From positions 1-64,000 of the forward strand of contig NZ_AOLI01000031.1 of NCBI RefSeq assembly GCF_000336955.1: a DNA stretch of 64,000 nucleotides, written 5' to 3'. The translations under genes were made by a program, and so were the position numbers. How positions within the stretch are numbered: the stretch's first letter is position 1; every line of letters starts with the position of its first letter. The stretch is from Haloferax larsenii JCM 13917 (GTDB taxonomy: Archaea; Halobacteriota; Halobacteria; Halobacteriales; Haloferacaceae). Positions 36,997 to 40,080 of the stretch are shown here, in pieces. Below the pieces are notes generated by a model that was not told the DNA's origin, ran no database searches, and saw nothing but the letters and a program-made list of their open reading frames with translations.

Positions 36997-38223
36997 TTAG
37001 ACAGCTTCGGCCTGCTGTGCCGTCCGGCGAATCTCTTCTAAGACGGAGTCGAGAGCGAGCACGTCAGAGAGCGCTTCCATCGCGCTGGAGAAAGGCACGT
37101 CGAGGGCGTAGCTGTAGTAGTTCCCGCGCGACCCGGTACGGTTCTCTTCTGCCGAGAGGATGCCGAGCATCCGGAGGTCCGAGAGGTGGTTGTGAACCGA
37201 GCGCTGTGCGAGCGGGTCGATACCGGCGGAGTTGCACAGCCGAAGATACTCCTGATACAGGTCGCGCATCCGGCAGGGCGTCTCGTCGTGGGCGGCCTTC
37301 GAGACGACGGCGAGGAGCGCGAAGTGCCCGTTTTCTGTGAGTTCGCGCATCCCCTCGACGACGCGCTCCTGTTCGAGTTTCTGCCGGGCGATATCGACGT
37401 GGTCGAGCGTGATTTGTGAGTCGTCGTTGTTCTCGGCGTGTTCGCCAGCGAGTCTAAGCAGGTCCAGCGCCTGTCGAGCACTCCCGCTGTCGCGGGCGGC
37501 GAGGGCCGCACAGAGGTTGAGGACTCCTTCTTCGCACGCGCCCTCGGCGATAGCGACGTCGGCACGCGATTCGAGGATGTTCTGGAGTTCGGGTGCTTGG
37601 TAAGGCGGGAAGTGCAGTTCGCGCTCACAGAGCGTGTCCTGCACGCGCGGGTCGAGTTGGTCGTGGAACTTGAAGTCGTTCGAGATGCCGACGAGGCCGA
37701 CTTTGGCCGCTTCGAGCTTCCCGTTCGAGCGCGCCCGCGGGAGTTCGTAGAGGAGTTCGTCGCGCTCCCCGATGGAGTCGACTTCGTCGAGGACGATGAG
37801 GATGGTTCCACCCACGTCGTCTAACTCTTGGAACAACTTCTTGAAGACGGTCTGTTGGGGATAGCCGGTCGAGCTGATTTCGGCACCCGGCGGGCGAAGT
37901 TCGTTGACGAGTTCCACCGCGACCTGATACGACGAGTTGAGTGTCTTACAGTTGATGGAGATGACGCTCAAGTCGACGTCGTCGTACTGAGAGACGTCTT
38001 CGAGGAGCATCTCCAGGAGAAACTCGGTTACTGCCGTCTTGCCCACGCCGGTGTTCCCGTAGAGAAAGACGTTGTTCGGTTCCCACCCGTCGACGACGGG
38101 CTGGAGCGCATCCATGTACTCCGAGATTTCGTCGTCCCGCTCTTGGATGCGCTCGGGCTTGTAGGACTCCCCGAGGGCGTCCTTGTTTGTGAAGATGTTT
38201 TGTTTTCGCTCGAACCGGCGCAT
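36997..38223 (-). CDS. orc: Orc1/Cdc6-family replication initiator
   Basis: A 408-residue AAA+ initiator. Walker A is GNTGVGKTA at 56-64, Walker B is ILIVLDEVDSIG near 137-148, sensor 1 is LVGISNDFKF and the sensor 2/lid region is GSARQALDLLR. A C-terminal winged-helix domain (about 310-395, RMRDLYQEYLRLCNSAGIDP) binds DNA. It should recognise origin repeats and help load MCM. Directly upstream is an array of matching repeats (38542-38942), the standard archaeal pairing of initiator and origin. TATTTAAA lies 31 nt before the ATG. From memory it corresponds to the orc5/oriC2 locus of Haloferax volcanii. Confidence 0.93.
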   Translation of the reverse strand: MRRFERKQNIFTNKDALGESYKPERIQERDDEISEYMDALQPVVDGWEPNNVFLYGNTGVGKTAVTEFLLEMLLEDVSQYDDVDLSVISINCKTLNSSYQVAVELVNELRPPGAEISSTGYPQQTVFKKLFQELDDVGGTILIVLDEVDSIGERDELLYELPRARSNGKLEAAKVGLVGISNDFKFHDQLDPRVQDTLCERELHFPPYQAPELQNILESRADVAIAEGACEEGVLNLCAALAARDSGSARQALDLLRLAGEHAENNDDSQITLDHVDIARQKLEQERVVEGMRELTENGHFALLAVVSKAAHDETPCRMRDLYQEYLRLCNSAGIDPLAQRSVHNHLSDLRMLGILSAEENRTGSRGNYYSYALDVPFSSAMEALSDVLALDSVLEEIRRTAQQAEAV

Positions 38224-38541
38224 TGGCGTCGGGTCGTTGTGCCGTCCCCTTATTTAAAACCCCGATTTCATCTGATACATGTGAATTTAGTTGGCTAGCG
38301 GTAGGTGACGTGAATAACCGATATAGGGGTCTAGACGGGTGTGTGGTGGTGTTGTGTCTGTGAACGAGTCCTAGAAGAGTTACTGAATAATCACTTAGTG
38401 GGACGAACAATCAGTGGATGACTGTTTGCTCGGTTCGAGTCCTCGGTCGACTCTCTCGATTCTGTTGTGTCACTTCTTCGCTCTGGTTCGAGTGACGTGG
38501 TGTCGAGTGTGTCACTTCATCGGTCGCAGGACAGACAGACA

Positions 38542-38562
38542 CACACCACTCTTGCAAGTGAA
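38542..38562 (-). repeat. origin recognition box 1 (inverted)
   Basis: On the minus strand TTCACTTGCAAGAGTGGTGT, matching the array to its right but in opposite orientation. It faces the direct copies across about 140 bp. Confidence 0.8.
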
Positions 38563-38699
38563 GCGTCTTCTACGAGAGTGTCTAGAAGAACAACAGTGCG
38601 TACTTTCAACTAAAGCGTTGACACTTGTTGGGTCGGTAGCAGGGTGGAAATTGAACTGCAGTGGCGGTATATGCTGCCTAGAGGGTCCAAAGCGGCTGA

Positions 38700-38720
38700 T
38701 TCACCTGCAACTGTGGTGGG
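38700..38720 (+). repeat. origin recognition box 2
   Basis: TTCACCTGCAACTGTGGTGG; one C/T difference from the consensus core. Confidence 0.8.
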
Positions 38721-38745
38721 TGAACGACGGAACACGAATCGAGAG

Positions 38746-38766
38746 TTCACTTGTACCGGTGGTCTG
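38746..38766 (+). repeat. origin recognition box 3
   Basis: TTCACTTGTACCGGTGGTCT; spaced 46 bp from box 2. Confidence 0.8.
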
Positions 38767-38800
38767 TCCCACCGACTCCCCACCCAGACGCTCACACCTC

Positions 38801-38821
38801 TTCACTTGCATCGGTGGTGTC
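38801..38821 (+). repeat. origin recognition box 4
   Basis: TTCACTTGCATCGGTGGTGT; spaced 55 bp from box 3. Confidence 0.85.
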
Positions 38822-38856
38822 TGTCTGTCCCCGATGCCTCCCGCCTGTCGGCTAGA

Positions 38857-38877
38857 TTCACTTGCAATTGTGGTGTG
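38857..38877 (+). repeat. origin recognition box 5
   Basis: TTCACTTGCAATTGTGGTGT; spaced 56 bp from box 4, followed by a G/T tract. Confidence 0.85.
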
Positions 38878-38921
38878 TGGGTGCCTGTTCGGCGGTCACA
38901 CCGGGCTTCGGTATCGCCGCA

Positions 38922-38942
38922 TTCACTTGCATCAGTGGTCTG
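38922..38942 (+). repeat. origin recognition box 6
   Basis: TTCACTTGCATCAGTGGTCT; spaced 65 bp from box 5, followed by a GTGTGGGG tract. Confidence 0.85.
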
Positions 38943-39099
38943 TGTGGGGTGGAAAGGGGTGAATGGAGTCACCCGTTTCGATACACCACCAGTTGGACGT
39001 TGCTGTTGTCTCTGGTTCACACGAGTTCACCAGAAATCGGCAGACAGTCACGCCATCGAACCCTCGCCCTTTAGGCCAACGGACGTGTGAACTCCTGTC

Positions 39100-40080
39100 G
39101 TGGACCGACGTGCTCTCCGTACGCTTACACTCGCCCTCCTCGCGGTAGTCGCACTCGCGGTGGTCGCCGCGACTATCGACTCGACCGTCGTCACCGAAGG
39201 TGGCTCCTCCGGGTTCGGTGCAGGACCGAACGACGGTGCCGTTGCAGGCGAGAGCGAATCGACAGGATTCGAGCCGCTTTCGGGGTCGGGCGGTGGGTTT
39301 AGCCTTCCGACACCGTGTCTCCCGTGGCTCCTCTCTCCGACGATACTCGGACTCATCGCCGGTGTGTTTCTTCTCATGGGCGCGTACGCCTACTGGCGCT
39401 CGCAGTCGTTTCTCCCACCGATTGCGATTGGGCTGGCGCTCGGACCGCCGGTTATTCTTGTTCTCGCACTCCTGACGGCGTGCCAGCGCGACTTCTCGTT
39501 TTCGTCGCGTGCATCCGATGCGGTCGGAAACATCTCACTGGTCCCGCCGGGTGGCGGCGGCCTCCCCGGAGGCGGTGCCGGGAGTGCGAGCAGCGTCTCG
39601 CCACCGACTGCACTCTTCGGTCTCCTCCTGCTCGTCGCACTCGCAGCGGCGGTCTTGATGCTCGTCACGTCGACCGGAGACTCGTCTCCGTCGGACGACG
39701 ACCCCGAGATGGACCCTGACGACGGGCATCCCGACGTTGCTGCTGTGGGGCGGGCGGCCGGAGCCGCGGCGGAACGAATCGAATCAGGCGGTGCCGACGT
39801 GGAAAACGAAGTCTTCCGCGCGTGGGGTGAGATGACTGCCCTCCTCGACGTTCCGAATCGGTCGGCGGCGACGCCCGACGAGTTCGCCACCGCGGCTGTC
39901 GACGCCGGGATGGACCGAGACGACGTCACCGAACTGACGACGCTGTTCGAAGCAGTCCGGTACGGTGGCGCCGAGGCGACTGCGGAACGCGAGCGCCGCG
40001 CCGTGCACGCACTCCGCAACATCGAAGCGACCTACGCCGACGCAGACGGGTCAGGCGACTACGCGGAGGGTGGCCGATGA
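39100..40080 (+). CDS. DUF4129-domain membrane protein
   Basis: A 326-residue protein with a GTG start at 39100. It has an N-terminal hydrophobic signal-anchor (about 9-25), a Gly/Ser-rich external stretch, then helices near 79-101, 105-127 and 167-187. The cytoplasmic C-terminal domain (about 215-325, ENEVFRAWGEMTALLDVPNR and on) is the DUF4129 module found with DUF58 and MoxR proteins, often in transglutaminase clusters. It opens a four-gene unit (DUF4129, DUF7269, DUF58, membrane protein) with overlapping ends, suggesting one complex in the membrane. Confidence 0.85.
   Translation: MDRRALRTLTLALLAVVALAVVAATIDSTVVTEGGSSGFGAGPNDGAVAGESESTGFEPLSGSGGGFSLPTPCLPWLLSPTILGLIAGVFLLMGAYAYWRSQSFLPPIAIGLALGPPVILVLALLTACQRDFSFSSRASDAVGNISLVPPGGGGLPGGGAGSASSVSPPTALFGLLLLVALAAAVLMLVTSTGDSSPSDDDPEMDPDDGHPDVAAVGRAAGAAAERIESGGADVENEVFRAWGEMTALLDVPNRSAATPDEFATAAVDAGMDRDDVTELTTLFEAVRYGGAEATAERERRAVHALRNIEATYADADGSGDYAEGGR

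Follow-up and report, generated by a model that had tools for sequence, protein, structure and literature searches.

The locus and its boxes

The stretch of DNA analysed here (64 kb, hereafter the window) corresponds to contig C31 in a Haloferax genome of 3.7 Mb, whose nearest relative is H. elongans, with a 100% identical orc gene. The product of this gene scores 449.7 bits against TIGR02928 (cut-off 181.3), has AAA+, Cdc6 lid and winged-helix domains and counts Cdc6-1 among its solved relatives; its Orc fold is plain from the sequence. Orthologues are 95-100% identical in 11 named Haloferax, and a published orc2 primer, CCGGCGCATTAGCGTCGG, matches positions 38215-38232 with one mismatch. The equation of the gene with orc2 of H. 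volcanii and cdc6C of H. mediterranei comes through the published description. Upstream of orc there is an intergenic region that reaches to the next gene, at 39100. The orc promoter stretch shows 93-99% majority conservation over most of its length among 12 Haloferax loci.

An earlier note on this DNA had described six related boxes upstream of orc, and these are present where it placed them, with spacings of 46, 55, 56 and 65 bp between the direct copies and at a density far above chance: the pattern TTCACTTGCANNNGTGGT with at most 3 mismatches is found 9 times in the 64 kb, where 0.74 would be expected, and 0 of 100 shuffles reached 9. A weight matrix built from the six boxes scores them at 31-38 and the next best site in the window at 14.5, with no other strong copy across the 64 kb scanned. 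Across 12 Haloferax loci the box columns have a mean majority conservation of 93%, against 60% outside them.

Table 1. Features of the orc locus, in window coordinates
Feature	Position	Strand	Description or basis
orc (orc2 family, Orc1/Cdc6 initiator)	36997..38223	-	408 aa; TIGR02928, Cdc6_lid, Cdc6_C and AAA domains
orc promoter region	38230..38286	-	TATA-like TATTTAAA at 38251; conservation across 12 Haloferax loci
Strong inverted ORB	38539..38562 (box start also given as 38542)	-	Pattern and weight matrix; in all related loci
Likely unwinding segment	38563..38615	.	AT-richer and conserved; predicted
Degenerate inner inverted ORB, TTTAGTTGAAAGTACGCACTGTTG	38591..38614	-	Conserved position, matrix score
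Direct ORB 1	38700..38723	+	Pattern and weight matrix
Direct ORB 2	38746..38769	+	Pattern and weight matrix
Direct ORB 3	38801..38824	+	Pattern and weight matrix
Direct ORB 4	38857..38880	+	Pattern and weight matrix
Direct ORB 5	38922..38945	+	Pattern and weight matrix

The asymmetry of five direct boxes to one inverted box, as first described, is actually five to two, because a degenerate inverted box, 52 bp inward of the strong one, had been overlooked. Its matrix score is 6.4 here and 3.5-27.5 elsewhere, where the 99th percentile of the background is -5.1, and of 38 orc2-family loci, drawn from several families, 37 have an inner element of the TTTAG type 48-52 bp inside (one has it at 60 bp). 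Its conservation shows the degenerate box to be real.

A constant distance of 137-139 bp separates the strong inverted box from the first direct one, and the direct spacings across Haloferax are 46-49, then 53-55 or 64-66, then 55-58 and 63-66 bp, most of the other species having about 47, 64-66, 55-56 and 63-64 bp. The slowly growing spacing that had been read as a signal is thus an accident of clade, the second slot being 53-55 or 64-66 bp depending on the species. This difference between clades of about one helical turn hints at phasing. A direct arm of five copies characterises the genus and not the whole family, many relatives having a single direct box.

An origin of a known family

The earlier proposal of an ORB-type replication origin adjacent to orc is well supported, though the origin is one already known. 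The region 38224-39099 is almost certainly the chromosomal origin that depends on orc2 in Haloferax, known as oriC3 in H. volcanii. In the published record, orc2 of H. volcanii serves oriC3 and cdc6C of H. mediterranei serves oriC2 (PMC4595724, PMC6063281, PMC7776575); the origin is known to be active in both species, oriC3 has been tied to Orc2 in H. volcanii (PMC7776575), and the orthologous H. mediterranei origin has both a marker-frequency peak and plasmid replication to its credit (PMC4595724). Wu et al. placed the origin beside H. volcanii orc2 in the oriCa family in 2012 (PMC3528665), and a published table lists the H. mediterranei oriC2-cdc6C origin for H. elongans as well (PMC4595724). 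The H. larsenii origin is therefore not a new one: it was known already, and its presence in this lineage had been predicted.

The comparison within the genus agrees with this assignment. Eleven named Haloferax have an orc gene with a matching box set (five direct boxes and at least one inverted); its gene surroundings are conserved where they were compared, and the flanking genes align in H. elongans, H. gibbonsii, H. sulfurifontis, H. mucosum and H. marinum. Beside an Orc of the orc2 family, all Haloferax loci compared have six strong boxes and one degenerate box, with both orientations represented, and the chromosomal location is conserved within the genus. The H. volcanii oriC3-orc2 and H. 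mediterranei oriC2-cdc6C origins have in common with the H. larsenii origin the gene family, the adjacent upstream ORBs, the inverted ORBs and the conserved Haloferax surroundings, and we see no difference in kind. The main texts consulted on oriC3 and oriC2-cdc6C make no mention of the degenerate inner box or of the remote array described below.

As to where such an origin would open, the AT-richer segment that the earlier note saw between the boxes and orc does exist (GC 0.44-0.53 against about 0.65), but most of it (38290-38530) is unconserved in other Haloferax. As an unwinding site it is disfavoured, since it is unconserved except for the orc promoter. The opening site is more likely to lie at 38563-38615, the best-conserved AT-richer piece and one situated between opposed boxes, with a GC content of about 0.44-0.47 in the window genome and a dip of low stability near 38575. 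The stretch 38535-38623, with an AT content above the average, is also the sole non-coding one with a BLASTN alignment to some other genera, even Haladaptatus. GC skew shows no clear reversal at the origin site. The neighbouring Orc would bind the two inverted boxes, one strong and one degenerate, together with the five direct ones; the DNA between the opposed boxes would then open, most likely in this segment, and MCM would be loaded there. The conserved inner box gives the orc2 origin family a specific candidate for where unwinding or loading takes place.

A second cluster of boxes, away from the origin and without an orc gene

A whole-genome pattern scan found a second cluster, of three boxes, at C33:50626-50717 (L029:8627-8717), flanked by a radical-SAM/helix-hairpin-helix gene and a TRAM-domain gene that converge on it. 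Patterns of this kind give 7-13 matches per genome, against 0-1 for the reversed-pattern control. The earlier note had counted boxes scattered through the genome without Orc genes as evidence against an origin; boxes do cluster without an Orc gene at one other site, G000:C33:50626-50717, and the conservation of that cluster suggests an extra function and not a refutation of the origin.

Three tandem boxes in the same direction stand behind the radical-SAM gene in all 15 Haloferax genomes. Their spacings are 24/24, 46-47/24 or 23/44, changing by about two helical turns, and boxes from different species share 86% identity (91% when the variable triplet is excluded), while the adjoining 30 bp are 52% identical on the left and 38% on the right. 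That the array is left over from a former origin and has no function is very improbable, to the point of being hardly credible: relic origins do occur, as at a locus in another genome (G186) where four boxes stand next to an orc fragment, but here the boxes have been kept in 15 species while the flanks and the DNA between boxes drift and change length, and within the 18 kb around the array in the window genome there is neither an orc gene nor a remnant of one.

The distance between array and origin is 111-140 kb in the seven genomes that have both on one contig, and an eighth, with its contig taken as circular, would give about 118 kb; the window genome has the two on different contigs, so the distance is taken from its relatives. 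The array is absent from the matching locus in 30 haloarchaeal genomes outside the genus, 18 of which have an orc2-family gene.

Specificity of the boxes

By their sequence, the boxes of the array are of the orc2 type. The ORBs of the other Orcs in the window genome differ in their 5' half, and a scan of the genus with the ORB of another Orc (TACAAACGCGAG...) finds essentially only that Orc's own origin, with no genus-wide remote site for the TACAAACGCGAG... ORB in the Haloferax genomes scanned. Since the ORBs of that other Orc are essentially confined to its own origin, having ORBs does not in general bring remote boxes with it. The array is predicted with good confidence to be bound by Orc2, motif identity being the sole basis of this prediction and a single box family the source of both the matrix and the patterns.

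Several other sites came to light. A single orc2-type box, TTCACATGCAACGGTGGTGTGT, at G000:C9:93968-93989 (L014:1501-1522), stands before the start of a small gene and behind a Cdc48-like AAA gene, and all 15 Haloferax genomes keep it in recognisable form; Orc2 may bind it close to a promoter, and an overlapping short reading frame, with its ATG before and its TGA after the box, could preserve the letters instead. The origin of another Orc lies at G000:C18:63759-64096 (L033), to which TACAAACGCGAGnGTGGTGTGT boxes are nearly confined in 14 Haloferax genomes. Near another orc homologue, on contig C14, there are tandem repeats in a 13-bp register (L030:4282-4407), and the orc homologue on C14 has boxes of the ACAGCGGACAnnGTGGTGT type on both sides. 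TTTACTGGCAAnAGTGGTGTGT boxes, often in opposed pairs about 1.7-3.6 kb apart, occur on several contigs of five genomes (G001, G002, G004, G008 and G011) and probably serve yet another family of Orcs as ORBs. The four orc2-type boxes of G186 (C1:1229734-1229859; L164) adjoin a fragment that matches Orc2 over residues 332-403 only (69%), and the locus is probably a decayed origin.

Three kinds of candidate were set aside: a single-box match at C30:25160, common only to an H. elongans-like genome; matches to TTCAGTTGCAGTCGTGGTGTC(C/T) in H. volcanii-like genomes, which in one inspected case fell within a MutL-like coding sequence; and possible orc-less clusters in other genomes, of which that at G281:C25 adjoins another orc and that of G186 the orc fragment, so that neither resembles the Haloferax array.

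Possible roles of the array

The position of the array bears on what it could do for its neighbours. In the window genome it begins 27 bp past the stop codon of the radical-SAM gene, as would suit an Orc2-dependent terminator or roadblock acting on the 3' ends of the radical-SAM and TRAM genes, and an Orc1-type protein is a transcription regulator in Sulfolobales (PMC9738581). The array is not a promoter, because it lies between convergent genes; it sits at 3' ends, and both genes do without it in the 30 other haloarchaeal genomes. We consider such control of the neighbours improbable.

We also find it quite improbable that the array serves as an origin, weak or dormant, that uses Orc2 in trans. 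Its boxes are of origin type and dormant origins exist in H. mediterranei (PMC4595724), but all three point in one direction with no inverted partner, the GC content is 0.56, and the opposed ORBs around an AT-rich segment expected of an independent origin are lacking; moreover, when origins are deleted in H. mediterranei their peaks vanish and oriC4-cdc6H takes over (PMC4595724).

What is found is a conserved box cluster away from both the origin and the initiator gene, as in a locus of the datA kind. We propose that the region 38224-39099 is oriC3, fired by Orc2, and that the remote array titrates Orc2 and so restrains re-initiation, a proposal that, taken whole, we hold to be evenly poised between right and wrong. 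The second conserved target of Orc2 in Haloferax would be these three tandem ORBs, without an orc gene and 111-140 kb off; the copy number of the array would double once the oriC3 fork has travelled that far and passed it, and the doubled array would bind more Orc2, lower the free Orc2 and thereby restrain re-initiation. Outside Haloferax, 22 of 23 related loci have 1-7 extra boxes immediately behind orc, and no Haloferax locus compared has any there. Titration at a distance in Haloferax is suggested because the boxes of relatives sit behind orc, Haloferax has none in that place and the cluster of H. hispanica represses. The more specific reading, in which a datA-like, orc-less three-ORB locus more than 100 kb from oriC3 limits Orc2-dependent initiation, titration having moved from behind orc2, is offered tentatively and falls somewhat short of an even chance. 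With three boxes, against seven at the origin itself, the array is small for titration, and the gain of the array is not statistically tied to the loss of boxes behind orc because only one lineage, a single genus, has the array.

Alternatively, Orc2 may bind the array to act on chromosome structure, gathering origin-proximal DNA or marking it for segregation, and not on the supply of initiator. The fixed distance of 111-140 kb, the helically related spacings (24, 44 and 46-47 bp) and the convergent intergenic position fit this equally well, but we found no haloarchaeal precedent for it in the open-licence papers searched, whereas titration by an ORB cluster has one, and we think it rather unlikely.

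If titration by the array is true, archaea would have in it their first known remote locus of initiator control, judging by the open-licence papers searched. What appears to be new is the conserved, orc-less remote array; the origin itself was known, and the inner box is an addition to it. To our knowledge, the restraint of re-initiation in archaea is poorly understood. Haloferax is genetically tractable and viable without oriC3, and three 22-bp boxes in this genus give a direct handle on how archaea restrain re-initiation. Should the array control oriC3, its distance from the origin is a possible timer.

Comparison with known systems

The nearest archaeal counterpart is oriC2D of H. hispanica, in which 11 ORBs stand in 722 bp directly behind cdc6E (PMC3936714). 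It has no origin activity and exerts negative control on oriC2, probably by titration of Cdc6E (PMC3936714), and it has been likened to datA of E. coli (PMC4010727). Like the Haloferax array, oriC2D is a cluster of the initiator's own boxes apart from the origin proper; it adjoins its cdc6 gene, whereas the array has three boxes and lies 111-140 kb off, with no boxes directly behind orc. The array resembles datA itself in being a remote cluster of initiator boxes, and datA negatively controls initiation; the initiator there is DnaA and there is no homology. The likeness would be one of function, by analogy. If the array controls oriC3, archaea and bacteria would have in common the timing of initiation by a distant initiator-binding locus.
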